Virus record (IMG/VR): IMGVR_UViG_3300037041_001875
Coordinates: 1 to 64,000 of that record
Source: a virus
Reading direction: 5' to 3' (one strand)
Length of the DNA: 64,000 nucleotides
Under the pieces are notes generated by a model. That model was not told the DNA's origin and did no database searches. It saw only the letters and a program-made list of their open reading frames with translations. Positions within the stretch are counted from its first letter, which is position 1. Every line of letters starts with the position of its first letter. Positions 7,173-50,866 of the stretch are shown here, in pieces. A program made the position numbers and the translations under genes.

Positions 7173-7175
7173 ATC

Positions 7176-14578: not shown

Positions 14579-14845
14579 CTACGCTTGGTGCCTCGTGGAC
14601 GTGGAATCTAGAGCAGTGACGCTTGCCTCATCTTCCACGAGTTCGCCTATTATATGCTCACGGCACATTACCCATGAGCGTCTATCGGCCGAGGTATCCC
14701 CTCGAGAAGCAATATCAAACAGAGCACACCACGTCCCACATTGGGCAGCGCCGTCACCGTAAGGGCAATTGAGCTTGCGGCCATCTTCGGCCACGAGAAC
14801 CTTAGTGGTCTTGGTATTCTTTCGGACTAGGCTAACCTTTTTCAC
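14579..14845 (-). CDS. Small Cys-motif protein downstream of CysH
   Basis: The 88-aa protein contains NCPYGDGAAQCGTWCALF (residues about 26-43) and a later Cys (VMCREH), a CP-x6-C-x2-C-x-C-like arrangement seen in small phage proteins that may bind metal. Its ATG overlaps the stop of the CysH-like gene as ATGA, so the two are made together. It may be an accessory of the sulfur cassette, or unrelated. Confidence 0.6.
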   Translation of the reverse strand: MKKVSLVRKNTKTTKVLVAEDGRKLNCPYGDGAAQCGTWCALFDIASRGDTSADRRSWVMCREHIIGELVEDEASVTALDSTSTRHQA

Positions 14846-32590: not shown

Positions 32591-32934
32591 TTCCACTTAT
32601 CCCCTTCCAAGACCTGCTCGTGATAACCCTAATTGCCGTGGGATTCTCATTCGTTGTGACTGGTTCCACGATAGGATATCCCATCCGTTTCGTGGCCTAT
32701 AAGGCCCTCGGCTGGATAGGCTCAAGCCCCATTTGGCTCGATAGCATCGCTCGTTGCCCGTACTGTCACGCATGGTGGCAGGGGCTCGGGTGGGCTTGGT
32801 ACACCGGACACGGATTCTGGGAATCTCTTCAGGCGGCTTTCGCCGCATGCGGAATCGCCGCCATAGTACAAGCTCAGTGGTCACTCGCAGCAGGGAAAGA
32901 AAGCTACGTCAGGGAAGGGCGCAAAAATGTCTAA
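32587..32934 (+). CDS. Membrane protein of DUF1360-like type
   Basis: The 115-aa protein has an N-terminal membrane helix (about residues 8-30), then ARCPYCHAWWQGLG, the Cys-Pro-x-Cys-x3-W signature of small DUF1360-type membrane proteins, and a second hydrophobic helix (about 80-100). ATGA overlap at both ends. Could be virion membrane or assembly protein. Confidence 0.65.
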   Translation: MIPLIPFQDLLVITLIAVGFSFVVTGSTIGYPIRFVAYKALGWIGSSPIWLDSIARCPYCHAWWQGLGWAWYTGHGFWESLQAAFAACGIAAIVQAQWSLAAGKESYVREGRKNV

Positions 32935-34738
32935 AGTCAGCAAAGAAGAGGTCTTGAAGGCCTTGGGCACGGCCCAATTGCAGGGCGTCAAAGAGGCCGT
33001 CAAAGAGCAGACCAAGGAGATGGGCATGCTCAGCGGGATGATGCCGGGAAGGGCGAATCCCGTGGTCACAGGGGCCTTTGAGCAGGTCGCTCAGCAGGCC
33101 ACAGCCGTGCGGCTCAACATCCAACGGCGAGATCCAGTCTCGGGCAAAATGACGTATATCAGAGGCCCTGGCGAAATCGACGCCAACCTCATCGCCAGCA
33201 AGGGCCTGCCCGAGATTATTGATGACTGGTGCGGCGGCGGCGAGTACACCGTCGAGGTCATGGCGCCCGGTCAAGAGCGCCTCATGCAGAACTTCACGGT
33301 CGGCGGGGCTCCGCAAGATCCTGGCTATCGAGCGAAGACTGCCGTTGCCGGCGGGGTTCCGGTCAATCAGGCCTATGACCCCTCGCACTACTTCGGCGTG
33401 CCGAGGCCGATGTACGCATCTCCGCAAGACAACTCGAGCAATATGGCCGTCAAAATGATGGAAATCATGATGGCCAAGGAAATGATGAGTGCCAAACTGG
33501 GCAGCGTATCCAACGCAGGTCAAGCCTCGTCCGAGGTCCAAGAGCTCCGCGCCGAGCTCGCTCGCATGCGGGATGACCAGAAGCGCGCCGAAGAAGATCG
33601 CCGCCGCACCGACGAGATGGAACGCTTGCGGCGCGAGGCGGCCGAAGACCGGCGCAAGTCCGAAGAGCGCTTCGAGAAGCTGCTCTCCGAGATGCACAAG
33701 GACAAGACCCCGGCGTGGGTAGGCCTGGCACAAGCGGCGATGCCTGCGCTTGCCGAAGTCTTCAAGGGCAAGGACGCCACAATGGGCCTGCTCTCGAACA
33801 CGTTCGGGACCGTCTTGCAAGCGCAGCAAATGGCCGCACAGCAGCAGTCTGAGACCTTCAAGATGCTGTTGAACCGGCCCACGGCTACGGACGAAATCTC
33901 GAAGATGACCTCGGTCTTCGCACAGAGCCAGCTCACGAACTTGCAAACCATCAACCAGATCGTGAGCTCAGGCCTGCTCGACAAGGGCGGCGGACACCCG
34001 CTGGTCGAGCTCCTCTCGCAGATCATCGACCAGGGCGGGCAAGTGCTTCAGGCCGGTCTATCGGGCAAGCAGGCGGCCGCAGGCAACATCGCCGGCATAG
34101 AACCGGAACCGGCTCCAGTGCTCCCACCTCGAGCAAGCTCTGAGGTTCCGCAGTTGCCGGCGCCCAAGGACACCCAGAAGCAATATGACCTAAACGCCGA
34201 TCCCTCGTTTCGGGTTATCATCGAGCAGATCAAGGGCAACGGCGATCCACGAGAGATTGCTCTGAGACTCTATCGCCACGGACAACCCCTTCGAGAAGAC
34301 CAAGGGCACCCGTTGGCGAAGTCTTGGTGTCGAGATCCTGAGAGTTACTCACGCCTCGTGCTCAGCCAGCTAGGTGTGCCTGACGCACGCATTCAGCAGA
34401 TCACAACGGCGCTGGTAGACCTCGCGCTGTGGGTCAAAGATGGCCGTGACCCAGAGGAATTCGCCAAGGTCGAAACACGCCGACGTCGACGCAAGAGGTT
34501 AGTGCCTTCAGCATCACCAGAGATGCAAGCGACACACGGCTTCTCGTTCAACCCTGACGAGCTTGATGATAGCGCCGAAGAAGAGTTCTACGAGGACGAC
34601 GACGGCGATGATGAACTGAGCAGAAGTCTCGAAGACGACGAGCTTGACGGTGAGGACGATGCACAGCAACAAGAGATGAGCTCGGTCATCGCAGAAGAGG
34701 CTCGGGCCGCCGAGGCTTCTTCAGTTGCGGAGTCGTGA
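32927..34738 (+). CDS. Large coiled-coil virion-operon protein
   Basis: This 603-aa protein has a mixed N-terminal region (1-180), a highly charged coiled coil (about residues 195-255, with Arg/Glu-rich QKRAEEDRRRTDEMERLRRE), an Ala/Gln-rich helical middle and a strongly acidic C-terminal tail (about 540-590, runs of Asp/Glu). The length and composition suit a scaffold or internal organiser. No ATPase, portal or protease motif. An acidic tail could contact the many basic small proteins of this operon. It overlaps the previous gene by eight bases. Confidence 0.7.
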   Translation: MSKVSKEEVLKALGTAQLQGVKEAVKEQTKEMGMLSGMMPGRANPVVTGAFEQVAQQATAVRLNIQRRDPVSGKMTYIRGPGEIDANLIASKGLPEIIDDWCGGGEYTVEVMAPGQERLMQNFTVGGAPQDPGYRAKTAVAGGVPVNQAYDPSHYFGVPRPMYASPQDNSSNMAVKMMEIMMAKEMMSAKLGSVSNAGQASSEVQELRAELARMRDDQKRAEEDRRRTDEMERLRREAAEDRRKSEERFEKLLSEMHKDKTPAWVGLAQAAMPALAEVFKGKDATMGLLSNTFGTVLQAQQMAAQQQSETFKMLLNRPTATDEISKMTSVFAQSQLTNLQTINQIVSSGLLDKGGGHPLVELLSQIIDQGGQVLQAGLSGKQAAAGNIAGIEPEPAPVLPPRASSEVPQLPAPKDTQKQYDLNADPSFRVIIEQIKGNGDPREIALRLYRHGQPLREDQGHPLAKSWCRDPESYSRLVLSQLGVPDARIQQITTALVDLALWVKDGRDPEEFAKVETRRRRRKRLVPSASPEMQATHGFSFNPDELDDSAEEEFYEDDDGDDELSRSLEDDELDGEDDAQQQEMSSVIAEEARAAEASSVAES

Positions 34739-34741
34739 GCC

Positions 34742-34954
34742 ATGGCGGTCAACATCGACCGCGGACAGATTTCGGTGCGCTTGACGGACGACCAAGCACG
34801 CGCCCTCGAGCGGTATCGGGTAACGCTTCAGAAGAGAATCCGATGCCACGCCCCCGGGTGGTCATGCAGTTCGGCACATGCGATCCGCGATCTGATTTTG
34901 AGAGGATTGAAGACCGAAGGCCTCATTCCTGACGTTGTAGAACCCCCAGAATAA
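34742..34954 (+). CDS. Ribbon-helix-helix-like protein
   Basis: The 70-aa protein reads ISVRLTDDQARALERYR (strand then helix) and AIRDLILRGLKTEG (second helix), the Arc/CopG-type fold. It is likely a DNA-binding regulator, perhaps of the promoter/operators just downstream at 34955-35115. Confidence 0.6.
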   Translation: MAVNIDRGQISVRLTDDQARALERYRVTLQKRIRCHAPGWSCSSAHAIRDLILRGLKTEGLIPDVVEPPE

Positions 34955-35115
34955 TGGTTTCCACTAGTTAACGCTCAACATCCCCCTGTTAACTCCCACC
35001 TACAACCGCCCAATATAATTGCGGTTTCATTGAACACACTGGAAAACCTAAGTATTCAAAAACACCCAAGATTTAGCTATTGACCACTAAATAGCTAGTT
35101 GTAGTCTGCCAGTGT
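34955..35115. promoter_or_regulatory. Internal promoter/operator region
   Basis: This 161-bp gap holds AGTTAAC...GTTAACT (7-bp arms, about 34967-34999), a TATAAT at about 35015 with a weak TTAACT -35 nineteen bases before it, and a perfect inverted repeat at 35074-35097. It probably restarts or regulates transcription of the capsid genes. Confidence 0.5.
35074..35097. repeat. Inverted repeat TAGCTATT-N8-AATAGCTA
   Basis: Perfect 8-bp arms, ending 18 bases before the protease gene start. Suits an operator; in RNA it would make a weak hairpin near the ribosome site. Confidence 0.5.
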
Positions 35116-35703
35116 ATGAGTCTATCTGGCAGAAGGATTGTCGACGCGCAATTCGGGACGGCCGAAGTTCACGATGTCTATTCGCTCAACGACCGTTTAT
35201 CCCTCATCAACGGTCAAGTTTTCAAAAGCCTGCGAGACCCTTCCATACGCGCCCTTGCGTTAGACCTCGTTCGAGGCACCCCGCAACATGGCAATGAATC
35301 CGAGCTGTCTGAACTGTCAAGAGTCTTCTGGTTCGTCAAGAAGAACGTTGAATACAGGCAAGACCCACACCAGTACGATTTATACTCTACAGCTTCTAGG
35401 ACCATCCAAGTGCATGCCGGGGATTGTGACGATCACTGCACGTTGATCGCTGCCTTAGTTGGAAATCTTGGATTCATTCCAGGGGCTAAAGTGATTTCAC
35501 CGGATGGAGCTAACTGGCACATTTACGCGCTAACTTCAGTGTTTCCGCGTAGCAACCCGCAAGCTCCCACGGCAAGATACCTAGCTCTCGACACCACACA
35601 ACCACTGAGTCATCCAGGTTGGGAACCTCCCGCGAAGTTCCAACGCTATGCACGGGTGGTCACGTTCACTGAAAGCGGGCCACTGGTCCAAACCGTGAGG
35701 TAA
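35116..35703 (+). CDS. Transglutaminase-like cysteine protease
   Basis: The 195-aa protein has the transglutaminase-core triad in order: AGDCDDHCTLIAALVGNLGF (Cys near 104), NWHIYAL (His near 135) and YLALDTT (Asp near 159). The GDC-D(D)-x2-LxxxLL motif is typical of bacterial transglutaminase-like peptidases. Placed before the structural genes, it may mature or cross-link virion proteins. First gene after the 34955-35115 control region. Confidence 0.75.
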   Translation: MSLSGRRIVDAQFGTAEVHDVYSLNDRLSLINGQVFKSLRDPSIRALALDLVRGTPQHGNESELSELSRVFWFVKKNVEYRQDPHQYDLYSTASRTIQVHAGDCDDHCTLIAALVGNLGFIPGAKVISPDGANWHIYALTSVFPRSNPQAPTARYLALDTTQPLSHPGWEPPAKFQRYARVVTFTESGPLVQTVR

Positions 35704-35705
35704 TC

Positions 35706-36623
35706 ATGGAATATCATCGTTTCATTACGGACCCCAGTCGAACATTGTCTGCGGCAGATCGCATGGATGTGTTCGGCGGCGGGATGGACCCTGCGGGCCT
35801 CGGCACTTTGGGAGCTCCAGTGAATCCAGCGCACGTCTTTGAGTACCTCGGCGAGAATCTCCCGCCCTCGGGGAATCCGAAGGAGATCATCGGGCGCGGC
35901 GGGGATCGTTGGAGTCGGGGCGCTCAGGATATCTACGGTGGCAAGTATATCACGGAAACGCAAGACCGTCTCTCGCCCAACACCAAGACGATCACCGTCG
36001 AGGATGCGAAGCCGGTCGTCATGCGACCAGACGAGCTCACTGAGATCAAGAACAACTCGCAGATCGTTCGGGAGATGACGCAGAACATCGGCTCAGTTCG
36101 AATGTTCGCTGCTCGTCCGAATGCGAACGTGCTCGCTGAGCAGGTCAGTGCCGATGCCGAGGCGCGTAACGTTCAGGACCAAGCTGTCGCGCTCGTTTAC
36201 GAGAGCCAGATGGATGCCATTCGAGCGACGCACCTGGGTGCTCGAGCTCGAGGCGCTGCTCTTCGCGGTGAGACCATCGGCGCATTGCCCACGGTGTCTC
36301 TAAATCGCAAGTTCTTGCCGACAACGAATATCGTTCGCATGCAAGCGCCAGTTCTCATGAAGACTATGGTGACACTCTACCCCGCGGGGAAGGCGAGCTC
36401 CCCACCGGCCGGTAGCAGTGACCCCGCACCAGTGTCTTTCACGACCGGCGAGAACATGTCCTTGGCCACCTTCCCCACAACCTCGAACGGCTCGTTTTCA
36501 GCCGAAGAGGCCGGCATGGGGGAAACCTACGTGGACACGCGCTTCGAGCCCACGAAGATTGCCTTGATTCTCGGTGGCGTCGCAGTCGCGGCCCTTGCCG
36601 CCTACTTTTTCATGAGGCAATAA
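35706..36623 (+). CDS. Virion-operon protein with C-terminal membrane anchor
   Basis: The 305-aa protein has Gly/Pro-rich N-terminal 80 residues, helical Ala-rich centre, and a C-terminal membrane helix (IALILGGVAVAALAAYFFM) followed only by Arg-Gln. Such tail-anchored proteins are common in membrane-containing phages. No enzyme motif seen. Confidence 0.7.
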   Translation: MEYHRFITDPSRTLSAADRMDVFGGGMDPAGLGTLGAPVNPAHVFEYLGENLPPSGNPKEIIGRGGDRWSRGAQDIYGGKYITETQDRLSPNTKTITVEDAKPVVMRPDELTEIKNNSQIVREMTQNIGSVRMFAARPNANVLAEQVSADAEARNVQDQAVALVYESQMDAIRATHLGARARGAALRGETIGALPTVSLNRKFLPTTNIVRMQAPVLMKTMVTLYPAGKASSPPAGSSDPAPVSFTTGENMSLATFPTTSNGSFSAEEAGMGETYVDTRFEPTKIALILGGVAVAALAAYFFMRQ

Positions 36624-36626
36624 CCC

Positions 36627-37604
36627 ATGAAGACCTGGGTATGGATTGTCGGTGGAGTTGGCGTTGCGGCTGGCGCGTGGTGGTATCTCAAGGGTCGCAA
36701 CTCTGCAACGACCGAGATGAGTTACCCCGAAGGCGTGGTCCCTGGTGTAACTCCTGGTTATCCTCTTGCTCCTAGCGTCGATGAGCTCCCGCCTGACGTT
36801 GCTCAACAAGAAACTCCAATGGGAGGATCGAATGCTCCACAGCAATCCTCTTCGCAAGCGTCCGCGTTCAGTCCTGTGGCTATGGCAAGCTCCGCTTCAA
36901 GCAGCGGCTCGCCATATGCCGTGGGCACCGGAAACGGATCAACCACAACGTCGACGACGACGGCGCCAGCGACAACAAGCCTGCTGAAACGTGCTCCCGT
37001 GCGGGTCAAGGCTGTGCCCCCGAGGCCTATGGTAGTGGTTACGCCGATGGCAGTAGCGCCAAAGGTTACTTCAATAGTAGCAACAAAACCAGTGGCAGTG
37101 TTTGAGCCAAAGGTTACGCCGATGGCAGCAACAGAACCGGTGGCGGTGTTTGCTCCAATGGTGCCAATAGCGGCACCAGTGTCCGTGCCGACACCAATGT
37201 TCGCGCCAAAGCCGGTGGTTACCGCCGAAGCTGTAGCTCCGACTGTAGCTCCGACTGTAGCAGCTCCATTGGTGAAACGTGAACTGGTGCCGGTTATGGT
37301 CACGACCTACCGAAGTCCGGTGACGAGCGCCACGCGGACGGTCGTCGTTCCGATGGTGAAGGCTCCAAGTCCGACTGTTGTCGCTCCGAGGCCGAAGAGC
37401 CCAACGCCGACCGTGGTCACTCCTTTGACCAGGCCACTGGCCGTGGTCCGACCGACGAATCTTCGAGGCGTCTATGCTGTGGGAGCCGACTTCACCGAAG
37501 CCGAGTATCGCGCTATGGGAGTTCGTGCCGAGCTCGAGACGCGGCGGCGTGAGTGGGCAGCAAATCAAATGTCTGAACAGACAAATGCAATGGCAAGGAG
37601 ATAG
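36627..37604 (+). CDS. Membrane-anchored Pro/Val/Thr repeat protein
   Basis: The 325-aa protein has an N-terminal membrane helix (WVWIVGGVGVAAGAWWYL) then a long low-complexity region (about residues 80-285) of imperfect units built on P-x-V, such as KVTPMAATEPVAVFAPMV. The end (about 290-325) is charged and helical. It is likely an extended spacer between membrane and capsid, or a surface projection. Repeats are visible at DNA level, implying slippage or recent duplication. Confidence 0.65.
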   Translation: MKTWVWIVGGVGVAAGAWWYLKGRNSATTEMSYPEGVVPGVTPGYPLAPSVDELPPDVAQQETPMGGSNAPQQSSSQASAFSPVAMASSASSSGSPYAVGTGNGSTTTSTTTAPATTSLLKRAPVRVKAVPPRPMVVVTPMAVAPKVTSIVATKPVAVFEPKVTPMAATEPVAVFAPMVPIAAPVSVPTPMFAPKPVVTAEAVAPTVAPTVAAPLVKRELVPVMVTTYRSPVTSATRTVVVPMVKAPSPTVVAPRPKSPTPTVVTPLTRPLAVVRPTNLRGVYAVGADFTEAEYRAMGVRAELETRRREWAANQMSEQTNAMARR

Positions 37605-37606
37605 TC

Positions 37607-37894
37607 ATGACACAGAAGAGCAAAAAGTCCTGCAAGTTGACCACGGCAAAAGCCGCAAGAGGAAATTTGGCAGCGGCGCGAGCGCACAAAGCTTTCCAGG
37701 ATTGTGCGTCTGGAAAGAAAAGTTGCAGTGCCGCCGAAGAAAAGAAGCTCATGGGGCAGATCAATAAGCTTCACGCTTCTTCCAAAAAGGACACAGACAA
37801 GCTTTGGTTTGTTTGTTCTAAATCAGAATATGACAAGGCAATGAGCGCTTCTCAAAAGCCTGCCGTAGCTTTTTGGAAGAACCTGAAAAAGTAA
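37607..37894 (+). CDS. Small basic Cys-containing protein
   Basis: The 95-aa protein is Lys- and Ala-rich with four Cys (KKSCKL, DCASGKKSCS, VCSK). It starts 3 bases after the previous stop with AAGGAG upstream. Basic character suggests contact with the genome inside the particle. Confidence 0.65.
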   Translation: MTQKSKKSCKLTTAKAARGNLAAARAHKAFQDCASGKKSCSAAEEKKLMGQINKLHASSKKDTDKLWFVCSKSEYDKAMSASQKPAVAFWKNLKK

Positions 37895-37913
37895 GGATTG
37901 GAGAACCCCAACC

Positions 37914-38297
37914 GTGGCTAAAGCTATCACATTGTCTGGAATAGCACAAGCGGCAAACGTCCCTTGGCAGTATCGTGCATGCACGCCCGTCGAGGTCTTC
38001 TCCCCGCCGCTAAACCAGAACGTGACGGTATGCCGTGAGTCGCTTCCAGCGGCCACGCCGACGACGGTTGTGCCAGCGGCACCCATGCCTATGCCGAAGA
38101 AGCGCGGCCGGCCTCGAGGCTCAAAGCCAGGCGCCCTCGATAAGAAGGGTCGACCGATTCATCGGCCGCAGTTCCCGGTATGCTCTCGGTACGAGTGGAT
38201 TCAGACGAAAAAAGGCCTGCGGTGTAAGTGCACTCGCGGTCAAGGAAAGTATGCCCCGAATGACATGTGTCGTCGAGGGTCAAACAACGCGGGCTAG
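37914..38297 (+). CDS. AT-hook-like basic protein
   Basis: The 127-aa protein has KKRGRPRGSKPG near residue 61, a perfect AT-hook core (RGRP flanked by basic residues), a Pro-rich linker before it and a Cys-rich basic C-terminus (CKCTRGQG...CRRG). AT-hooks bind the minor groove of AT-rich DNA. Likely a packaged DNA-binding protein. GTG start at 37914. Confidence 0.65.
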   Translation: MAKAITLSGIAQAANVPWQYRACTPVEVFSPPLNQNVTVCRESLPAATPTTVVPAAPMPMPKKRGRPRGSKPGALDKKGRPIHRPQFPVCSRYEWIQTKKGLRCKCTRGQGKYAPNDMCRRGSNNAG

Positions 38298-38318
38298 CTT
38301 TGCCCGTAGGAGGTCGAC

Positions 38319-38813
38319 ATGGGAAAAGACATGATCGCCCGCAACGACGGGCAAGATGAGTCGGATGGCGATTTCGGTGCGCTCGACATTCAAGTGTTGA
38401 GTGGACTGGACCTCTCTGCTGACAACGTGATCCCGCCGATTCTGGGTGTGGGCGCGGCCGCGATTTCCTCGCTGCTCGTCCGAAAGTTCGTCGCGCACGA
38501 ACTGGTCCAGAACTGGGCGGACGCGATTGGCGGTGTGATCGGTGCAGCTCTCTGCATGCCGATCAAATACTGGAAGGGCGACGAAGCCATGAGCTCTGCC
38601 ATGGTGTCGTCTCTCGCTTACGGCGTGGTCACAACTGCCGTGAAGAAGCTCGGCCCCATGCTCGGCATCGGCTATCTGGTTCCCCAGATGAGCGGCTTGG
38701 CCATGGAGCGCATGGGCTATCTGCCGCAGATCCCGACCATGTCCGCACAGCAAGCATCTATTCCACGTGAGGTCCGTGCGTCCGCTGACATTTCGGCTTT
38801 CGGCCGTCCGTAG
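38319..38813 (+). CDS. Multi-helix membrane protein
   Basis: The 164-aa protein has hydrophobic segments near residues 38-57 (VIPPILGVGAAAISSLLV), 69-80 and 95-125, with a Met-rich tail. Strong ribosome site TAGGAGG. Placed directly before the main capsid candidate, it is a good candidate for an abundant virion membrane protein. Confidence 0.65.
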   Translation: MGKDMIARNDGQDESDGDFGALDIQVLSGLDLSADNVIPPILGVGAAAISSLLVRKFVAHELVQNWADAIGGVIGAALCMPIKYWKGDEAMSSAMVSSLAYGVVTTAVKKLGPMLGIGYLVPQMSGLAMERMGYLPQIPTMSAQQASIPREVRASADISAFGRP

Positions 38814-38879
38814 TCAGTACGCAAAAACAAATGCCGCTTTAAGGCATAGAAGACCGAAAAGGTCACTGGAGATTTCAAC

Positions 38880-39599
38880 ATGGCACAGATCAAGAAAATC
38901 GAGTTCGGCGACGGATCACAAGTAACGATCACTGACTGGGGTGATTACCCCCTCTGGTCGCGCATCTGCGTCGGCGTGAACACGTTCGGCACGGACCAAG
39001 CTTTCTTCCAGTACCAGAGTGGACAGGCGGCGCCTGGCATCACTCTGTCGACTGACCTGGACACGAACATGCTCGCCAACGGCCAGCTCCCGGCGTCGCA
39101 TGAGTTCCTCGTTTACTCGTTCCAGATCATCCCCGACGAGATCCTCGGCGTGGATACGGTCGTAGGCGAGACGACCTACGTGGCCGGTCAGCACCTCCCC
39201 GAAGTGGACGTGACGGCGGGCTTCCAGAAGATGAACCAAATCTTCAACTCGACGCTGTTCCAGTTCCGCATCGAGCAGAGCAAAACCTACGTGGAAGGCC
39301 CCATCGCGTACTTCCCCGCAGGCGGCGGCTCGCACATCGAGCACAACTCGGCTGTGGACGGCCAAGCTTCCGAAGCCGCGGACTACATCGAGGCCTACTC
39401 GATTCACAACGGCCGGCAGGGCTGGGACCACGTCCGTCGCTTGTGGATGCCGATCTACATTGCCGGACTCGAGACCTTCCGGGGCACCCTGCGTGCTCCT
39501 CGTGGAACCGGGTTCAGCACAAACGTTCCCATCGACTGGGACTTCGGCATGGGCTTCACGTGCCGCATGACCGGTCCGCGCAAGCGTCCGACCTACTGA
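38880..39599 (+). CDS. Candidate major virion protein, beta-rich (single jelly-roll size)
   Basis: The 239-aa protein is almost free of long helices, rich in Gly, aromatic residues and alternating hydrophobics (DGSQVTITDWGDYPLWSRI; LFQFRIEQSKTYVEGPIAYF), and GC-rich with regular codon use, as expected for a highly expressed gene. Its size suits a single jelly-roll capsid protein. It is followed by a strong RNA structure (39612-39693). The capsid call is an inference from place, size and composition. Confidence 0.5.
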   Translation: MAQIKKIEFGDGSQVTITDWGDYPLWSRICVGVNTFGTDQAFFQYQSGQAAPGITLSTDLDTNMLANGQLPASHEFLVYSFQIIPDEILGVDTVVGETTYVAGQHLPEVDVTAGFQKMNQIFNSTLFQFRIEQSKTYVEGPIAYFPAGGGSHIEHNSAVDGQASEAADYIEAYSIHNGRQGWDHVRRLWMPIYIAGLETFRGTLRAPRGTGFSTNVPIDWDFGMGFTCRMTGPRKRPTY

Positions 39600-39611
39600 T
39601 CTGACCGGTCG

Positions 39612-39693
39612 CGTGTTCGAATTCTGCCCCTGGGTGGCTTAAAAAACACCCTTCCCGTTGGCTTGGCTGTCCGGGGGCAGTCTCGAGAACACG
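39612..39693 (+). promoter_or_regulatory. Three-tier RNA stem-loop between capsid-candidate genes
   Basis: Nested perfect stems: CGTGTTC 39612-39618 / GAACACG 39687-39693; CTGCCCC 39624-39630 / GGGGCAG 39674-39680; GGGTG 39632-39636 / CACCC 39647-39651. No T-run follows, so it is more likely an mRNA stability, processing or attenuation element than an intrinsic terminator. Confidence 0.55.
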
Positions 39694-39713
39694 ACCCATA
39701 GGAGGTTTCAAGC

Positions 39714-40586
39714 ATGGGCAAGAAGAGATACGTTCCACGGTGGATGCACTCCCGTGTGGTCGTTACGTCCTTGGGTGACATGATCGCCGACCCCGAGCTG
39801 TTCATGAACAAGACGGCGTGGCCTTTCAAGATCGAACATCTCACAATCTTCGGCTATCCATTGGACGTTGATCACAACTTCCTTCAAGCGGGTGGCATCG
39901 GCTCTCTCATCCAAGGAGAGATTGGTATCAGCGGGTCGACCGACGTCAATCTAGTTCCTGCCCCTGTCAATGCATCTTTTGGGTGCACTGAACTGCATAC
40001 ACAAATCGGCGCCTTCATGGAAGGCACCACGATGAAATTTAAACACCCTTATCTACTCTCGCGTGATAGCGGGTTCAATGTCGAGTGCACTCTGAACCTC
40101 GACGATTGCGGTACGCGCACTTTTCTTACTTCTATGAAACATGGTGTAGCTCTCTTCGGAGTGAAGGTCCAGTCGGGCAAGCCTGCGATGCTGGCTGGAT
40201 TGTTCCGGCATTTGGATGTTCCTACAGGAAGCTCCTTCACCATCGAAGCGGCAGACCTGTTCAACGATGGCGAAGAAGATGTGCTAATTCAAAGTATGCA
40301 GTTAACGCACCCAATGGAAGATATGCACTCTATCCTTATGGGTGTTTACTGGAAGATAAATCCAATGTCTGGCTTGACTTGGATGGATCAACCGGTGCAT
40401 ATCTCTGGAATCACGCCTTACACGATGTCTCGACGCAACTTCGATGGCATAAAACCATTTTCCTTAACTCCACTAGAAGACACTTATTTGTATCGGCGGC
40501 AAAGATTGGGGATCAAGTTGACACCTCTAGTGGATGAAGACCAGCCAGTCAATATAACTCTCTTCGGCTATTTGGAGGTGGAGTGA
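39714..40586 (+). CDS. Beta-rich virion protein, possible double jelly roll 1
   Basis: The 290-aa protein appears to have two similar halves. Each half opens with a strand after a charged turn (AWPFKIEHLTIFGY; EDVLIQSMQLTHP) and closes with a GV-LFG-type strand (GVALFGVKVQ; VNITLFGYLEVE). The closing strand is shared with the next two genes. This is the pattern expected of double jelly-roll capsid proteins, the smallest known (about 270 aa, phage PM2) being of this size. AGGAGG upstream. Confidence 0.5.
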   Translation: MGKKRYVPRWMHSRVVVTSLGDMIADPELFMNKTAWPFKIEHLTIFGYPLDVDHNFLQAGGIGSLIQGEIGISGSTDVNLVPAPVNASFGCTELHTQIGAFMEGTTMKFKHPYLLSRDSGFNVECTLNLDDCGTRTFLTSMKHGVALFGVKVQSGKPAMLAGLFRHLDVPTGSSFTIEAADLFNDGEEDVLIQSMQLTHPMEDMHSILMGVYWKINPMSGLTWMDQPVHISGITPYTMSRRNFDGIKPFSLTPLEDTYLYRRQRLGIKLTPLVDEDQPVNITLFGYLEVE

Positions 40587-41458
40587 TGGCTAAAAACTAT
40601 CTCCCATTTGCCCGTCGAGTTTACCTCGATGTCCCTGCCGGGACTAGAAGGTCAATTCTACGTGAGCAGTTTTCGAGTGGTATGGGCAATCGAGCTTTTC
40701 TGTCTGATGTGGCAATCGACTTAATTTATATTGATGGGATTACCACGTATAACTACAATTGGCAGGTAGGGCGCGTGCTAACTGAGCGTGTGTTCATGCG
40801 TATGGGTATTTTTGGCGCTCCTTACTTGACAGAAGATTTCTATCCTATCGCGCTATTCAACGATTCTCCTATGGAAGAGGTCGGTGTATGGAGATTGCCA
40901 AAACCATACACAATCTTTCCAGGTGAGAGGTTGAAAGCTCGTGTGCAGTTTTCTCCCGGCGGCGCTGTGGCTCCTTTGCCCAGTGAGGCATATGGTGGGT
41001 ACTATGCAACTTGGCCGAGCATAGCTTTTCACGGTGTCCGTCAAGACAACAAAAGACCCATAGTTTTGTATGATACGTTCCCTTCAACCTTCGATCAAAA
41101 CGACGTGTTCGTGACTCCACCATTAGGGACTCCAGTTATTTTGCAAGGTGAACGCTTGCAATGTCCCAAAGAGACACCCGTAGACATTTATGCCGTGAAA
41201 AATCCCACTTGCGGCGATGGTCAGCAAGGCCAGTTCCCGGGTGTGCAGATTTGGTCGCCCGACGGCCGGAAGTGGTGGGAAGATGATCGGTGGCCGCTGG
41301 TTCTGTATCCCACGTTCGTGATAAAAAATTTGCGTGGGCCTGAATGGGTTTTGGATGTTAGTGAGACGCTGCAAATTGAATTCGAGAATCTTCCTGTTTA
41401 CTCGTTCGATAGAACCTTAATGGTCACGTTGCGCGGTCAAGTGGAGGTAGAAATATGA
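40586..41458 (+). CDS. Beta-rich virion protein, possible double jelly roll 2
   Basis: The 290-aa protein has FLSDVAIDLIYIDG near residue 35, a mid-protein strand WPSIAFHGVRQDN and a C-terminal TLMVTLRGQVEVEI strand like the ending of the preceding protein. The ATG at 40586 shares a base with the upstream TGA, and GGAGG lies seven bases before it. Likely a paralogous capsid or vertex protein. Confidence 0.5.
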   Translation: MAKNYLPFARRVYLDVPAGTRRSILREQFSSGMGNRAFLSDVAIDLIYIDGITTYNYNWQVGRVLTERVFMRMGIFGAPYLTEDFYPIALFNDSPMEEVGVWRLPKPYTIFPGERLKARVQFSPGGAVAPLPSEAYGGYYATWPSIAFHGVRQDNKRPIVLYDTFPSTFDQNDVFVTPPLGTPVILQGERLQCPKETPVDIYAVKNPTCGDGQQGQFPGVQIWSPDGRKWWEDDRWPLVLYPTFVIKNLRGPEWVLDVSETLQIEFENLPVYSFDRTLMVTLRGQVEVEI

Positions 41459-42525
41459 AAAACATTTTCGTGACTACCCCTGGTGTTCCAAGTCCTGTTG
41501 TGGCCTCGAGGTTCACGGCCTTCAAGGGCGAGCGCCCCAAGGTACTCTCGCAAGTTCCCGCGGGTGAAAATGTCGCCGAAGTTTACCCGTGGATTTCGGG
41601 CGTGCGGCACATGATTAACGGTGTGACGGACTCGGAAACCAAGGTTATTCGAGAAGGCTACGGGTCTTCCGCTTTCGTGAACAACACCGACCGAGTTATA
41701 AGTATCAAGCAGTTGAGGTTTTTCTCTTCTCAACCGCCCGGTCTTGTCATGATATTAGGGAATTCGATGATTTATGCCCGCATGGGCATTAAAGTAAGAC
41801 ACACCGATTTCGAAATCGTGTCTGAATGGCTCCCATGCGGCATGCTCGAGACGCAAAACAATGTATGGGAAACAGTTGCCCGTAGCAATCTCTGTATGTC
41901 CCTGCCAACCCCGTACTATTTGCAGTCGGGACACACGTTCAGGACACGCATACGCTCAACTAATCCGTTCATGGCCGCTGCGAATTATTCTTTTTCTATG
42001 ACTTTGTTCGGCAAAGACCCAAAGAACGGCAAACCGTATGAGCTTTGCAAGCAAGTGACCGTGCCCTACCGCGCCACGCCGGCAGTTAGCGCCGCAAACC
42101 CCCTGTATGTGGACGTTGTGTTTGATGACAACCGCGACTATCCCATGCGAGATATGCTGTTAACGCATATTTTGTTTTCGATAGCTCCACACGCAGGCGT
42201 GGGGTACGAGCAGGTTTTGCGTTACGCACAGCAACTAGATTTTCAGTTTATGCCGCCCGAAGGGCCAAAGTGGCTAGACTTTGCCGACTGGGCTCCAGTG
42301 GGTAACTTGGTAGATCAAACAATATGTAGCAATGTTAGTGCTTCGTTTGTTTCATACAGGCCAGAAACGCCTATACTTTTCGCTCCTAGCCAGCAGATAG
42401 ATATTGACGTCAGAGCGCTTGCGCCGTTGTCTTATCAGGATGCCGAGGAGCCTAGAGAGCTTATCTACGAGGTTCCGTTGTGGGTCACGTTGATCGGCAC
42501 GCAAGAGCAGCAGGTGAACAGATGA
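41455..42525 (+). CDS. Beta-rich virion protein, possible double jelly roll 3
   Basis: The 356-aa protein has two halves ending in matching strands, NYSFSMTLFGKDP (about residue 180) and VPLWVTLIGTQEQ (end), each preceded by an opening strand (RVISIKQLRFF; YPMRDMLLTHILF). The longer loops (for instance after residue 210) could form surface towers. The three tandem paralogs would let the particle use different proteins at different lattice positions. ATGA overlaps at both ends. Confidence 0.5.
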   Translation: MKNIFVTTPGVPSPVVASRFTAFKGERPKVLSQVPAGENVAEVYPWISGVRHMINGVTDSETKVIREGYGSSAFVNNTDRVISIKQLRFFSSQPPGLVMILGNSMIYARMGIKVRHTDFEIVSEWLPCGMLETQNNVWETVARSNLCMSLPTPYYLQSGHTFRTRIRSTNPFMAAANYSFSMTLFGKDPKNGKPYELCKQVTVPYRATPAVSAANPLYVDVVFDDNRDYPMRDMLLTHILFSIAPHAGVGYEQVLRYAQQLDFQFMPPEGPKWLDFADWAPVGNLVDQTICSNVSASFVSYRPETPILFAPSQQIDIDVRALAPLSYQDAEEPRELIYEVPLWVTLIGTQEQQVNR

Positions 42526-42815
42526 GCCAGCTCGACCGATACTATCTGAAGTCGTCGCCAGAGGTGATCGTCAAGGTTCAGGTTCCATCGTTGGTCACCC
42601 TTTGGGTGGTTCCCGTCGTGGACATGGAAGATGAAACCTTCGAGTCGTCGATGGTCTACATCACGATCAACGATGAGCCGAAGTGCCGTTTGTGGAAGGG
42701 GACACCCCTCATGACAAACCGGCTCCATTTCCTGCATCTCGAGGCCGGGGATTCCATCTGGGCATGCACTCGTGACCAGGCCCTTGTAGGAATCCAGATC
42801 GACGCGGAGAACTGA
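42522..42815 (+). CDS. Small beta-sandwich-like protein
   Basis: The 97-aa protein starts MSQLDRYYLKSSPEVIVKV (ATG at 42522 overlapping the previous stop). It alternates hydrophobic strands and turns throughout (VTLWVVPVVD; DSIWACTRDQALVGIQI). It may be a minor capsid or cement protein; not recognised. Confidence 0.6.
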   Translation: MSQLDRYYLKSSPEVIVKVQVPSLVTLWVVPVVDMEDETFESSMVYITINDEPKCRLWKGTPLMTNRLHFLHLEAGDSIWACTRDQALVGIQIDAEN

Positions 42816-42817
42816 AG

Positions 42818-43366
42818 ATGGACGTCACATATGGGCATGACGAACGCTGGCCGGCAAACACATGGATAAACCTGTGGGTCGAGACCTATAATCGTCCGCC
42901 CGTCATGCCCCAAGAGATGCGCCCTGAGCTCGAGAAGCTAGACCTCGACGTGTTCAATCCCGAAGAAGGCATGCTTTCCGTGTTCGGCGAATCTTTGGTG
43001 AGCTACGATCCTGACAAGCAGGTTGGAAAGTCCCTCGTGTTTGTTCGTGACCGTTCTGGTCTTATGACCAAAACCAATCTGATCTCGTCGCTCACACGAG
43101 CTCCTTGGACGCCTGTCGCATCGGGACCGTTCATGCCGTCGGTGTCATACTGGCCGGGAATGAGCGACACGCTCAAGACGAATCAGGACACTATCACAGC
43201 GCTTTGGAATACCCAGCAGGGAACTGAGGGCGCTTGGAGCTTCGCTAAGTTCTTTGGTACAGTGCTCAAGGTGAGTGCGGTGGGTGCGATTGGGATCTTG
43301 CTGTTTTCCCTTTACACCCGCGCCATGCCTGAACCTCGACTACCAAGAAAGCGAGCCTACCGATGA
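42818..43366 (+). CDS. Tail-anchored virion-operon protein
   Basis: The 182-aa protein has a Pro/aromatic-rich soluble part and one membrane helix near the C-terminus (about 148-168, VSAVGAIGILLFSLY) ending in a basic tail (RLPRKRAYR). Spaced two bases after the previous gene. Likely links capsid and membrane. Confidence 0.65.
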   Translation: MDVTYGHDERWPANTWINLWVETYNRPPVMPQEMRPELEKLDLDVFNPEEGMLSVFGESLVSYDPDKQVGKSLVFVRDRSGLMTKTNLISSLTRAPWTPVASGPFMPSVSYWPGMSDTLKTNQDTITALWNTQQGTEGAWSFAKFFGTVLKVSAVGAIGILLFSLYTRAMPEPRLPRKRAYR

Positions 43367-43534: not shown

Positions 43535-44452
43535 ATGGCGGAAACCTGGGATACCGGCGAAGACAGTAGCTCTTGGGACACGACCACGCAGGACTACAGC
43601 ACGCAAACCGAGCGTGACCAGTGTGGCCAGACCTTGGACGAGTCGTGGGAGTATCAGACGGACGACTATGGCTACACCAAGCAGGACAACAGCCAAACCA
43701 CGGGCTACAAAGAGGCGCGCAAGACTGAGATCAAGCGGATTCAGACCGCCTTATTGCGAGCGACCTTCAACCCGGGCACCGTCGACGGCTCTTGGGGGCC
43801 GAAGACCTGCTCGGCCATGCTCGCATTCCAGAAGAGTCGCTTCGGCTCGGCGAAGAAGGCCTGGTTGGATATCGAGACGTGGACCAAGCTCGACTTTGAC
43901 ATGAGCACCTCGAAGAGATTCGAAGACCTCTACGGCCGGTCATGCGGTGGAGCTCCACCGGCTGGTTGGGCGGGCGCAGGAAGCGGAACGAATGTCGGTA
44001 TCAGCGCTACCGAAATCCAGAAGATTCAGTACGGACTCGGCGTGCTCACAACGGGTGTGTTCGACAAGGCCACGTGCGCTGCGCTCTACAAGAAGCAAGC
44101 GGCTCTTGGAGTGAGTGGCTCAGTGCTCACGAAGCGCGTCTTCGAGACGCTCGGCTTCACGACTTCGGACGCTCAGAAGTTGGCTATGCAGCTCGGCACG
44201 GCTTGCACAGCCTACTACAAGGCGGCTGGAAGCACAACCCCGGCGAAGCCATCGACGACGCCAGCTAAGCCAACCACGCCAACCACGCCAACCAAACCTC
44301 CGACGACTCCAGGCACAACGCCAACCAAACCCACAATCACTCCACAGACCGCAGGGCTCAGTGGATGGTGGATCTTGGCCGGCATGCTCGTCGTGGGCAT
44401 CGGCGGCATGATTTTCATGAAAGACCAGAAGCCTGGTAAGAGGCGTCGATAA
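43535..44452 (+). CDS. Peptidoglycan-binding, tail-anchored virion protein
   Basis: The 305-aa protein has an acidic, Gln/Thr-rich N-terminus (1-60), a peptidoglycan-binding type 1 domain (EIKRIQTALLRATFNPGTVDGSWGPKTCSAMLAFQKS, about 67-103), a second divergent copy (EIQKIQYGLGVLTTGVFDKATCAAL, about 166-190), a Thr/Pro-rich linker (about 235-275), and a membrane helix (WWILAGMLVVGIGGMIFM) with a KRRR end. It has no catalytic domain. It would tether the virion membrane to cell wall peptidoglycan during entry. Confidence 0.75.
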   Translation: MAETWDTGEDSSSWDTTTQDYSTQTERDQCGQTLDESWEYQTDDYGYTKQDNSQTTGYKEARKTEIKRIQTALLRATFNPGTVDGSWGPKTCSAMLAFQKSRFGSAKKAWLDIETWTKLDFDMSTSKRFEDLYGRSCGGAPPAGWAGAGSGTNVGISATEIQKIQYGLGVLTTGVFDKATCAALYKKQAALGVSGSVLTKRVFETLGFTTSDAQKLAMQLGTACTAYYKAAGSTTPAKPSTTPAKPTTPTTPTKPPTTPGTTPTKPTITPQTAGLSGWWILAGMLVVGIGGMIFMKDQKPGKRRR

Positions 44453-46880: not shown

Positions 46881-47471
46881 ATGACTGTTAGCGGACGCAC
46901 AGGTATATTCACAGGAAAAGTAGATCCTATAACGGATTGTTTGCATGCCATAGAAAATGAGCATGCTAAAATACATGGTGGCCGTCATTTCTTTTCTTAT
47001 ACAGCAGACAGATACGGATCGCTAGATTCAGAGAGAACAGGCACAAATTTTCTTATAATTCCCCCGACAGTTAATTCGGGGTACAAGTGCCACTTTACAT
47101 TTAAAGTGCTGTATTTTGGCGCAATTGAGTTATGTCTTGAAGAAGACATCACCTATACCGGTGGCAGCGCAGTTTCTATTTATAATAATGACCGTGCTAG
47201 CGCCACTTCAGCTTTAACTCAAATAAAACAAGATGTAGCAATCACGGGTGGCACGCGGACACAATTAGTACCAGCATATCTAGGAGATATTCCTAATGGA
47301 TTAGGAACTAGTGGAAGTTTTTCGGTTGTTAGACCGGATGAAGAGATCATATTGAACGGTGCCTATAATTATATTCTTAAGATGGATGTTCACAATTCTG
47401 GAGAATTGTTAGCGGGTGATAACGTAACGACAACAATATTTCAATTTTACGAACATGTAAACATCGAGTAA
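46881..47471 (+). CDS. Virion-associated beta protein, paralog A
   Basis: The 196-aa protein has MTVSGRTGIF...ENEHAKIHGGRHFFSY at the N-terminus and FYEHVNIE at the end, shared with the next two genes (VHTGDAFYV; WYEHTNVEN). The H-x-IH-x-G-xxF pattern is common in phage minor structural proteins. This copy is clearly more AT-rich than its paralogs, indicating a separate origin. Confidence 0.7.
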   Translation: MTVSGRTGIFTGKVDPITDCLHAIENEHAKIHGGRHFFSYTADRYGSLDSERTGTNFLIIPPTVNSGYKCHFTFKVLYFGAIELCLEEDITYTGGSAVSIYNNDRASATSALTQIKQDVAITGGTRTQLVPAYLGDIPNGLGTSGSFSVVRPDEEIILNGAYNYILKMDVHNSGELLAGDNVTTTIFQFYEHVNIE

Positions 47472-47480
47472 GGTGATTTT

Positions 47481-48029
47481 ATGACGGTACGTGGACGAAC
47501 AGCAATCTACCCAGTACGCATCGATCAAACGACCGATGCCGCCGCAGTAGTTGACTATGAGCACAAAGAGGTTCACACGGGTGACGCCTTCTATGTGACT
47601 CAAGTGGATGAGCTTGATGATACGGAAATCACGTCTCATCGTTTCCTTCCGCCAAATACTGCGGAATGGATGCACTTCTTCTTTATTATCGAGGCTCAAG
47701 CAGCTTGTTTGATAGAAATACGCGAAGGCATAACCGATGGCATAGAAGCTAGCTCAGGTATTCTCAATCGAAATCGTAATTTCTCGGATGCTCTGGCCAC
47801 TATGAAGCATGAAAGACAACTGGGAGCGGCTACGCTTGGCACAGTGATATGGTCTTGGGCCAGTGGTGGGGCAACTGAAAATTCTAGGACTCCTATGCTA
47901 ACTCGGCAGAGTGGGGAAATCGTACTAAAGCAGAATACGCTATACGAAGTCCGCGTGACTTCAAGTGTGGATGATAACATCGTGTCGACTTATTTCACTT
48001 GGTATGAACATACCAACGTGGAAAACTGA
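47481..48029 (+). CDS. Virion-associated beta protein, paralog B
   Basis: The 182-aa protein begins MTVRGRTAIYPVRIDQTTD, contains YEHKEVHTGDAFYV (about 28-41) and ends WYEHTNVEN. Lies nine bases after paralog A. Nearest relative is paralog C. Probably a surface decoration or adaptor protein made in three variants. Confidence 0.7.
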   Translation: MTVRGRTAIYPVRIDQTTDAAAVVDYEHKEVHTGDAFYVTQVDELDDTEITSHRFLPPNTAEWMHFFFIIEAQAACLIEIREGITDGIEASSGILNRNRNFSDALATMKHERQLGAATLGTVIWSWASGGATENSRTPMLTRQSGEIVLKQNTLYEVRVTSSVDDNIVSTYFTWYEHTNVEN

Positions 48030-48038
48030 GGTGTTGTC

Positions 48039-48584
48039 ATGACAGTTGTAGGACGCACTGCACTATTCCCAAATAAGATAGACCAGACAACCTCTGGTAA
48101 AGCCCAGCTAGAGTATGAGCATAAGCAGGTTCATAGTGGTGATGCTTGGGTAGTGACATACAATGCGTCGACTGATGCAGCGGCAACCTTAGACCGTTAT
48201 ATAGTGGTCCCAAACACAACGAGATGGCCTCACGTATTTTGGGACATAGTTGGTCAAGGTCTAACAACCATTTCGTTGTATGAAGGTGCTTCTGGCACCT
48301 ATGATCCTGTCACAGCGTACAATAGAAATAGAAACAGTGTTCGGGCTAATACGACTGTCATAGGCAATCCAACGGGAATAATCACGGCAGGAACCTTGAT
48401 ATGGACGTGGCAGTCTGGCACAACGGGACCATCCCGGGCGCGGGGCTCGGGCGCTACGCGAGAGACCGGCGAGCTCGTATTGAAACAGGCTACAACCTAC
48501 TTGCTTCGATGCACGAGTGGCGTGAATAGCAACATAATCTCGGTAGACTTGATTTGGTACGAACAAACAAACATCGAAAACTAG
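48039..48584 (+). CDS. Virion-associated beta protein, paralog C
   Basis: The 181-aa protein begins MTVVGRTALFPNKIDQTTSG, contains YEHKQVHSGDAWVV and ends WYEQTNIEN. Ten bases after paralog B. A GC-rich patch with RARGSGATRETGEL near residue 128 interrupts otherwise AT-leaning sequence. Confidence 0.7.
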   Translation: MTVVGRTALFPNKIDQTTSGKAQLEYEHKQVHSGDAWVVTYNASTDAAATLDRYIVVPNTTRWPHVFWDIVGQGLTTISLYEGASGTYDPVTAYNRNRNSVRANTTVIGNPTGIITAGTLIWTWQSGTTGPSRARGSGATRETGELVLKQATTYLLRCTSGVNSNIISVDLIWYEQTNIEN

Positions 48585-48883: not shown

Positions 48884-49564
48884 ATGACGAGTTCGATTTA
48901 CAACTATCAGAACAATGCCAAGGTCTGGTTGCCCATGACCTCGGCATGTCATGATCCTGTCAATGTTCGCACGTTGGATAAGTCGGGAAATAATTTACAT
49001 TATCGTTTCGGTGATGGAGCTATTAGTGGCAGTTTTCCGACTAAGTTGTCAGGTAGCCGTGGCTATCTTAACGACACAGTAAATAAATATCTTGAAGCGC
49101 TAGCTAATGAAACAAATGCCATAACCCAAGGAACTTGGGCCATATTTTTTAAATTAGATGACTGGGTATCAAACCAGCATATTGTTAGCCATTATGATGC
49201 GTTAGGCAATTGTCGTTGTATTATTCAAATAGTTGCTAATATCGCAAGATTTTATTGTGGCGACGTAGCGAATCCGGTGGGATTAACTATTAATCTGCGA
49301 GGTAACAAGGTTTTCTTAGCTGGGTACAGAACCACTGACGGTTATAGAAGACTATATGTAAACGGTATAATAGCAACACCCGTAAATGCTGGGGTCAGTT
49401 TGCCGGGAGCCCCTACAACTAATCCAAGGATTTTTAATAACTACGTTCTAACTACAGCATGTTATGCTAACGTCTTTTGGTATGGTCACTGGGAATACGC
49501 CCTAACAGAACTTCAACTAAGAGACCTCGAAGCACGTCTGAGAAGACAACTGAATGATGTTTGA
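48884..49564 (+). CDS. LamG/concanavalin-like lectin domain protein 1
   Basis: The 226-aa protein has the layout of LamG-type jelly rolls: an opening LDKSGNNLHYRFGDG segment, a TWAIFFKLDDW strand, FLAGYRTTDGYRRLYVNG and a closing WYGHWEYALTELQLRDLEARLRRQL helix. Such domains bind sugars or proteins. AT-rich. Starts two bases after the previous gene. Likely a receptor-binding protein. Confidence 0.65.
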   Translation: MTSSIYNYQNNAKVWLPMTSACHDPVNVRTLDKSGNNLHYRFGDGAISGSFPTKLSGSRGYLNDTVNKYLEALANETNAITQGTWAIFFKLDDWVSNQHIVSHYDALGNCRCIIQIVANIARFYCGDVANPVGLTINLRGNKVFLAGYRTTDGYRRLYVNGIIATPVNAGVSLPGAPTTNPRIFNNYVLTTACYANVFWYGHWEYALTELQLRDLEARLRRQLNDV

Positions 49565-49573
49565 GGTAGGTTC

Positions 49574-50242
49574 ATGGGTTTAGGTGGTATATTACAAGAG
49601 CTGAAAACTGAAGGCGTTCTAGGCCTTTATCATGACTATAGATCGGGTAGATTGGTTGATTACTCGGGTAACAGTAACAATGGCACTGCTACAGCAGTCT
49701 CTTTTAGTAAGAAGGGTGCGGGTTTCTTAGGAACTGCCGGTAGAATTTTGGTTCCTTCTTCCGCTACGTTGCAAAGTGTTACGGGAACGTTAATTGGATG
49801 CTACACCGTTTCAAACAATACACAACAAATCAGAATAATAAATAAACGCGGGTTAACTACACAAATAGACTACTTTCAAGCAAGTACAACAGTATTAGCA
49901 CTGTTTGATGGGGTAAATATTCCACAATTAACCGTTCCTAGAACTAATGGAAAAGTTTGTAATTCTGTTAGCTGGACAAGTGGCGGAACCCCTGTAGGAT
50001 ACCAAAACGGTGTTTTGGTCGGTAACTACACTCTAACCCTATCACCAGTATTAAATAATACTGATGTCACTATAGGGAATCAAAACATAGGAATAGCTAA
50101 TGTATTATCAACTCAAATCTGCCACTATGCACTTATCATAAATCGTGTTCTCACGGCCACAGAGCATGCAAGGGTCTATGGCCAGCTAGAAAATATGACT
50201 TGGAATACTAAGGGACTAACACCCGGACCTATGATGCCCTAA
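49574..50242 (+). CDS. LamG/concanavalin-like lectin domain protein 2
   Basis: The 222-aa protein begins MGLGGILQELKTEGVLGLYH and has the LamG signature VDYSGNSNNGT (about 29-39), VGYQNGVLVGNYT and a closing helix LTATEHARVYGQL. The first 16 codons are nearly identical to the next gene, a recent duplication of the anchoring N-terminus with diverged lectin parts. Confidence 0.7.
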   Translation: MGLGGILQELKTEGVLGLYHDYRSGRLVDYSGNSNNGTATAVSFSKKGAGFLGTAGRILVPSSATLQSVTGTLIGCYTVSNNTQQIRIINKRGLTTQIDYFQASTTVLALFDGVNIPQLTVPRTNGKVCNSVSWTSGGTPVGYQNGVLVGNYTLTLSPVLNNTDVTIGNQNIGIANVLSTQICHYALIINRVLTATEHARVYGQLENMTWNTKGLTPGPMMP

Positions 50243-50254
50243 TAGGAGTTTTGA

Positions 50255-50866
50255 ATGGGTTTAGGTGGTATACTACAACGATTGAAAACAGAGGGCGTGA
50301 TGCTTGTGTATCATGACCATCGCTCTGGTACGCTATACGACTACTCTGGTAACAGTCGGACGGGCTCTCCTAATTCTGCTAACTGTTTCAGTAAACAGGG
50401 CATGATCACTAAGGGCTATGTAACCGTGACTAATGATGCCACGTTACAAGCTGCCACAACGGGAACTTTGATAATTCGTCAGAGTGTTACACGGGCAGGA
50501 TCATCTTCTTATTTTGCTAAGAAGAATAATCAATTTCAATTCACTTATTCTGATGGACTGGATAGGTACGATTTATATGTTAATGGAACCTCTCGCACGC
50601 TAACTTCTACTAATTTAGTAGGCATGCACACGCACGCAGTGGAGTTTGATAATGCTGGCGGTACTCCAATAGGATACCTGAACGGCATATCAATCGGTAA
50701 CTACTCTGGCGTACTCACGTCTGTAGCAGATGCGGCTAACTTAACTTATGGCTCGGCTTCGAGCGACGTTGAACCGCAGACGTTAAGGTATTTCTTATGG
50801 ATTTCTAGGAAACTAACGGCCGCGGAACATCAAGAGCTGTATCAACAATTGCAGGCATTATCATGA
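50255..50866 (+). CDS. LamG/concanavalin-like lectin domain protein 3
   Basis: The 203-aa protein begins MGLGGILQRLKTEGVMLVYH, with YDYSGNSRTGS, IGYLNGISIGNYS and LTAAEHQELYQQL. Clear tandem paralog of the previous gene. The end overlaps the next ATG by four bases. Confidence 0.7.
   Translation: MGLGGILQRLKTEGVMLVYHDHRSGTLYDYSGNSRTGSPNSANCFSKQGMITKGYVTVTNDATLQAATTGTLIIRQSVTRAGSSSYFAKKNNQFQFTYSDGLDRYDLYVNGTSRTLTSTNLVGMHTHAVEFDNAGGTPIGYLNGISIGNYSGVLTSVADAANLTYGSASSDVEPQTLRYFLWISRKLTAAEHQELYQQLQALS

Follow-up and report, generated by a model that had tools for sequence, protein, structure and literature searches.

We analysed a stretch of viral DNA of 64,000 nucleotides (below, the window), which covers positions 1 to 64,000 of the IMG/VR record IMGVR_UViG_3300037041_001875 (65,599 bases in length). 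The subject of this work is a block of genes for beta-rich proteins at positions 38880-43366. A previous reading of the sequence had described it as a tailless-virion module of the PRD1/PM2-like lineage with three tandem double-jelly-roll proteins. We argue that the block probably does build a tailless shell, with another of its proteins as the major capsid protein.

The gene block and the genome unit

The core of the block consists of four genes, which, like all the other genes of the region 32927-43366 described here, lie on the plus strand. The first encodes a protein of 239 amino acids (aa; 38880..39599) and is uninterrupted in the window. It is followed by genes for proteins of 290 aa (39714..40586), 291 aa (40583..41458) and 356 aa (41455..42525). 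The middle protein has 291 aa when translated from a GTG start and 290 aa from the ATG at 40586. With this proviso the original prediction gave the four lengths correctly (239, 290, 290 and 356 aa), and its description of the genes as coupled agrees with the 4-base overlaps of the last three. Candidates for the membrane proteins said to flank them were recognized by eye on both sides. The upstream candidate is a hydrophobic, likely membrane protein of 164 aa encoded directly 5' of the 239-aa gene (38319..38813). The downstream candidate is a protein of 182 aa with a C-terminal hydrophobic segment (42818..43366). Further upstream a transglutaminase-like protein is encoded (35116..35703); it is the counterpart of gp34, a protein annotated as structural in the salt-lake phage SSIP-1.

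The same sequence is found at both ends of the window with a spacing of 61,864 bases (one mismatch in 2,136 bases), which puts the genome unit at about 62 kb. We take the genome to be, most likely, circular or terminally redundant. The repeat confirms the predicted genome size of 62 kb, which had also been called large for such phages. The latter is not borne out: 11 records with the family of the 239-aa protein are 35-70 kb long, and several of them may be fragments. No tRNA was found.

A candidate major capsid protein

The nearest relative is a contig of 42 kb (L002), and viral scans that used one protein or a close pair retrieved only this contig or nothing. More distant relatives were found with an alignment of the transglutaminase-like protein, which retrieved, besides the nearest contig, L007 (70 kb, 51%), L008 and L009 (35 kb), SSIP-1 and L011. 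L007 carries the whole block in the same order, and its homologues of the four core proteins are 42-43, 31, 37 and 30% identical to those of the window.

A profile built from eight proteins of the 239-aa family matches 11 of the 12 records compared (E from 1e-88 to 5e-21). The unmatched record is SSIP-1. Five of the 11 matched records contributed rows to the profile, and six are not in the model. A second, small match was found in G009 (4.7e-6). When the capsid profiles of the window group and of the group of L008 and L009 are compared, the result is borderline on its own (P 5e-4, probability 30). The 239-aa protein has no tblastn match in 50,697 phage records, and Pfam and PHROGs gave nothing for all eight rows of the family.

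A structure model of the 239-aa protein was made from eight sequences (predicted local distance difference test, pLDDT, 60; predicted template modelling score, pTM, 0.62). Its best Foldseek match in the PDB is SPV1 (E 0.0076), followed by HHIV-2 and P23-77 VP17. VIA-align gave a Z of 8.6 for SPV1 (138 residues, 3.5 A), 7.3 for HHIV-2, 7.1 for HCIV-1, 7.0 for SH1 and 6.5 for P23-77. The leading viral matches all belong to one capsid type, so the model is suggestive, rather than proof, of a single-jelly-roll capsid fold.

The gene of the 239-aa homologue in L007 contains a group I intron after codon 21 (Rfam RF00028, about 14010-14359; the full model is matched with E 0.0016, below the gathering score). 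In L002, too, the gene carries an insert at this codon (about 7100-7489). Rfam does not call this insert an intron and gives only a chance-level snoR125 match; we call it intron-like on the strength of its alignment with the L007 intron, which occupies the same position. Thus, the gene is interrupted at codon 21/22 in two of the three close genomes, and the insert is absent from the window. Since phage group I introns favour conserved, essential genes, such a placement fits a capsid gene. The 239-aa protein is likely the major capsid protein and a better candidate for this role than the three proteins encoded after it.

Three tandem paralogues

The 290-, 291- and 356-aa proteins had been predicted to be three paralogues in one genome. 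We compared their families by hhalign, using profiles of three sequences per family. The claim stands for the pairs 290/356 (P 6e-8) and 291/356 (P 5e-5); the pair 290/291 is not significant alone (P 0.02). In the controls, 60 column shuffles per significant pair never gave better than P 0.047, and reversed profiles gave 0.2 or worse. A search of the window with the 356-aa profile found the 290-aa protein at E 9e-7 and, beyond the 356-aa protein itself, one chance-level match (E 0.22). The joint alignment has common landmarks throughout, i.e., P-x-PY-x-L, LFG..(K/R)P, a G-x-x-W loop and a closing TL-x-G strand. Taken together, these comparisons support the view that the three proteins are tandem paralogues.

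The LFG/VTL-x-G strands noticed earlier in the first and third proteins are present: the 290-aa protein has F148 and L283-F284-G285, and the 356-aa protein has L184/G186 and G348. The middle protein also has such motifs (F148/G150 and L282-R283-G284), invariant in three genomes, and all three proteins end in related strands (GYLEVE, GQVEVEI and TLIGTQEQ), as had been claimed. The internal duplication that these strands had suggested is not supported. Comparison of half against half by hhalign gave nothing, and neither did a profile alignment against 60 shuffles, which is a weak test that misses the likeness of the N-terminal halves of the 290- and 356-aa proteins seen by hhalign (P 4e-4). Pfam gave nothing for the 239-, 290-, 291- and 356-aa proteins, and a PDB sequence search returned chance-level matches or none. 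The 356-aa protein, as well as the proteins of 715 and 305 aa and one of 182 aa, has no tblastn match in the 50,697 phage records.

The model of the 290-aa protein was based on nine sequences (the three paralogues of three genomes; pLDDT 63, pTM 0.65), and its predicted strands form two series, one of 7 and one of 8 strands, that resemble each other. In one of two comparisons with the PDB it matches birnavirus VP2 (E 2e-5, TM-scores near 0.2). In the other, at Z 6.6-7.9 over 95-127 residues, it matches nucleoplasmin-like, geminivirus, enterovirus, Faustovirus, HHIV-2 and P23-77 VP17 proteins, and a similar mixture of generic jelly-roll matches was obtained against viral models. The aligned ranges span the first to the last residue, with just about 110 residues aligned; the model may therefore mix strands of both halves.

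These results bear on the possibility that the three paralogues are true PRD1/PM2-type double-jelly-roll major capsid proteins, the 239-aa protein being a minor or penton protein. Sizes of 290-356 aa, two series of strands and matches to jelly-roll capsids, including the double-jelly-roll major capsid protein of Faustovirus (Z 7.5), would suit such proteins. On the other hand, the halves have no detectable similarity, no FtsK/HerA protein was found, and the paralogues evolve faster than the 239-aa protein, which is the opposite of what is seen in sphaerolipovirus shell proteins. The fold prediction and comparison proposed earlier as a check, run for the 239- and 290-aa models, gave matches to jelly-roll capsids. 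For the 290-aa model neither PRD1 nor PM2 is among the 50 matches listed in either PDB comparison, although families beyond these lists may match as well. The resemblance of this model is to jelly-roll capsids in general, and the assignment to the PRD1/PM2-like lineage is not supported. We regard a double-jelly-roll shell of this type as improbable.

The divergence of the genes points to another role. Identity to L002 is 100% for the upstream membrane protein, 99% for the transglutaminase-like protein and 92% for the 239-aa protein (its first 21 residues left out), vs 79, 76 and 68% for the first, second and third paralogues. In sphaerolipoviruses, according to PMC5332951, the major capsid proteins, the membrane protein and the ATPase are the most conserved and the vertex proteins the least. 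In the window the paralogues diverge fast, whereas the capsid and membrane proteins next to them hardly change; this matches the pattern and for this reason favours spikes or towers. By this analogy the three paralogues are most likely spike or vertex proteins, or else a second shell subunit.

A related arrangement would have two major shell proteins, as in P23-77 and SH1, namely the 239-aa protein and one paralogue, with the other two paralogues as spikes. SSIP-1 and P23-77 both encode two types of major capsid protein, as stated in a review (PMC6356626), and in relatives of the window the capsid gene is followed by a gene for a second small beta protein (133 aa in L015, 148 aa in L020, 142 aa in L024). 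These small proteins, however, have no profile match to the three paralogues. We hold this arrangement to be a serious possibility, although not the favoured one. There is also a small chance that each paralogue is a fused jelly-roll pair, that such pairs arose in a single-jelly-roll lineage without descent from PRD1, and that the shell has four differentiated subunits, the three paralogues and the 239-aa protein. If true, this would be a living intermediate for the origin of double jelly rolls from single ones, in a widespread group of bacterial viruses without a recognisable packaging motor.

Virion type and genome packaging

Thirty proteins of the window were scanned against Pfam and 30 against PHROGs. 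No portal, terminase, HK97 capsid or tail protein was found among them, save a weak tape-measure match of a 177-aa protein (PHROGs, E 0.046). PF03237, the sole terminase family searched genome-wide, has no match in the window record and is over the cut-off in none of the 12 records; a match in L002 (11.2 bits, cut-off 22) was taken as chance. In this respect the earlier call of a tailless virion is upheld.

The window also encodes an integrase; the scans further recognized a polymerase of the Pol A type and a Sak4-like protein (PHROGs), Gp157, PD-(D/E)XK and SNF2 helicase proteins (Pfam) and a DUF3987 primase-like protein (both databases), with weaker glucosaminidase-like and SLT-like matches (Pfam). 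Tailed phages commonly carry genes for Gp157, Sak4-like and Pol A-type proteins. Together with LamG-like and repeat proteins recognized by eye downstream, these genes might suggest that tail and adhesin genes of a tailed phage have been mistaken for a shell module, the three proteins belonging to a tail or fibre. Against this stand both the PF03237 search and the two scans of window proteins described above, and we think it improbable that the virus is tailed.

We consider it likely that the block builds the shell of a tailless phage, probably one with a membrane, and that its major capsid protein is the 239-aa protein, with the three paralogues as spikes or a second subunit. The membrane protein encoded directly upstream would lie beneath the assembled single jelly rolls of the 239-aa protein. 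One ancestral beta protein may have given rise to tandem duplicates, which diverged quickly into the three paralogues; these would face the host as spikes at the vertices or as towers on the capsomers, or would be a second subunit of the shell. Both the transglutaminase-like protein and a peptidoglycan-binding protein encoded downstream are probably virion-associated and would serve for wall penetration.

Several observations weigh against this interpretation. Confidence is low for both structure models (pLDDT 60 for the 239-aa and 63 for the 290-aa protein), no Foldseek match of the 239-aa model reaches E 0.001, and the unrelated copper enzyme PHM ties with the capsid matches at Z 7.0. A transglutaminase-like protein is also encoded in L011, together with what look by eye like terminase and portal genes, so that this protein by itself does not identify a tailless virus. 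The capsid-size proteins gp45 and gp46 of SSIP-1 are not matched by the capsid family of the window (hhalign P 0.45; 0 profile matches). Because the capsid profile finds no SSIP-1 protein, the link to this phage rests on one protein and gene order. Finally, the genome unit seems complete, and yet it yielded no packaging ATPase.

The search for this ATPase covered FtsK/HerA (PF01580, 0 of 1; PF01935, 0 matches in the window record) and a HerA profile made from HerA-like proteins recognized by eye in L015 and L020, which gave no convincing match in the window (best E 0.075). A profile of gp40, the RecA-like ATPase of SSIP-1, and its Balneola homologue had 0 matches in the open reading frames of the window. 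DUF87 is present in two of the 12 records (G008 and G009). The Odin group and FLiP are reported to be without the ATPase (PMC5894146); Odin genomes are small, unlike the 62-kb unit. A genome of 62 kb without a recognisable ATPase raises the question of its packaging.

Relatives in prokaryotic genomes

A genome scan yielded ten loci: five in Acidobacteria and one each in Streptomyces atriruber, Balneola, WOR-3, an unassigned bacterium and an archaeon. Five of them (L015, L016, L017, L020 and L021) were read wholly or partly. The motif string of the 239-aa protein, i.e., a TN-rich turn followed by a G-rich FP.GGG-like turn, was recognized by eye in three of the five (L015, L016 and L020); none was seen within the stretch of L017 that was read, and L021 has a candidate for a protein of this type. 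L015 and L020 lie in contigs of 337 and 497 kb and are hence probably proviruses. Related proteins are encoded in chromosomal contigs of Acidobacteria and in a Streptomyces contig. A final scan added seven further contigs.

In the Streptomyces atriruber contig (L016, 2226-4123) the transglutaminase-like gene is directly followed by a gene for a 191-aa protein of the capsid family, which is a possible route to a cultured host. In L024 a 282-aa beta protein of two parts (5085-5930) is encoded after the capsid gene and the gene for the small 142-aa beta protein. Each of its halves closes, by eye, in a strand like those of the window paralogues, and it may represent the ancestral single-copy state. 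Homology of this protein, or of SSIP-1 gp47, with the three paralogues was not accepted, the likeness being by eye only and the alignment poor.

Other genes of the window

The block is preceded by genes for a coiled-coil-like protein of 603 aa (32927..34738; 92% identical to L002) and a protein of 305 aa whose C-terminal part has, by eye, a hydrophobic segment (35706..36623; 88%). Between the third paralogue and the downstream membrane-protein candidate (82%) a small protein of 98 aa is encoded (42519..42815; 89%). The next gene on the plus strand that we note (43535..44452) encodes a protein with a peptidoglycan-binding domain (PF01471, above the cut-off), likely a virion-associated protein of cell-wall entry or lysis.

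Three further tandem paralogues of 196, 182 and 181 aa, about 28-43% identical, are encoded at 46881-48584, vs just two in the compared stretch of L002. They are followed at 48884-50866 by three tandem genes with 41-84% identity to L002, LamG-like by eye, the second and third of which are related (about 36%) via their L002 counterparts. On the minus strand, three adjoining related-looking genes at 16217-18941 (274, 274 and 363 aa) are ATP-grasp-like by eye and have no PHROG match at E 0.05. A minus-strand gene at 14842-15465 is PAPS-reductase-like by eye, and SSIP-1 likewise has an annotated one (gp25).

Comparison with known systems

The window virus would share with PRD1 and PM2 a tailless, membrane-containing plan; it differs from them in that there is no evidence of their perpendicular double-jelly-roll major capsid protein or its ATPase. 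The predicted fold of the 239-aa protein resembles the major capsid proteins of P23-77, SH1 and HHIV-2. These viruses differ from the window in that there is no sequence match and no FtsK/HerA ATPase was detected in the window, and their genomes are far smaller. The best fold match of the 239-aa model is SPV1, a portoglobovirus, which infects archaea.

The closest known phage appears to be SSIP-1, of which there is one isolate, still unclassified and without a family. A 2019 review (PMC6356626) states that its genome is hardly similar to GenBank sequences. When six window proteins were compared with the 50,697 phage records, the sole match was that of the transglutaminase-like protein to SSIP-1 gp34 (E 0.1); pairwise, the two match with E 2e-8 and 25% identity over 99 aligned positions. 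The gene order is the same in both genomes: a coiled-coil protein (gp33), gp34 and, further on, a membrane-like protein (gp44, in the position of the 164-aa protein), capsid-size proteins (gp45 and gp46), a larger beta protein (gp47) and a small beta protein (gp48, 132 aa, in the position of the 98-aa protein). The correspondences of gp33, which has no sequence match to the 603-aa protein, and of gp48 are by position only. SSIP-1 also shares a genome of tens of kb, an integrase and the lack of a PF01935 match. It differs in having two paralogous proteins of 210 and 211 aa (gp45 and gp46, E 1e-12) vs one of 239 aa in the window, and one gp47 vs three paralogues.

Most likely, the window virus is a tailless phage distantly related to SSIP-1. 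Judged by titles and the opening lines of abstracts, no paper on SSIP-1-like genomes of this type was found in a search of open-licence literature. Through the cluster the unclassified SSIP-1 is connected with uncultured genomes as well as with a Streptomyces contig and chromosomal contigs of Acidobacteria, and the capsid-protein profile is available for finding more members. The cluster also shows a likely surface protein triplicated in tandem and, in L007, a likely capsid gene of what would be a tailless virus that harbours a group I intron.

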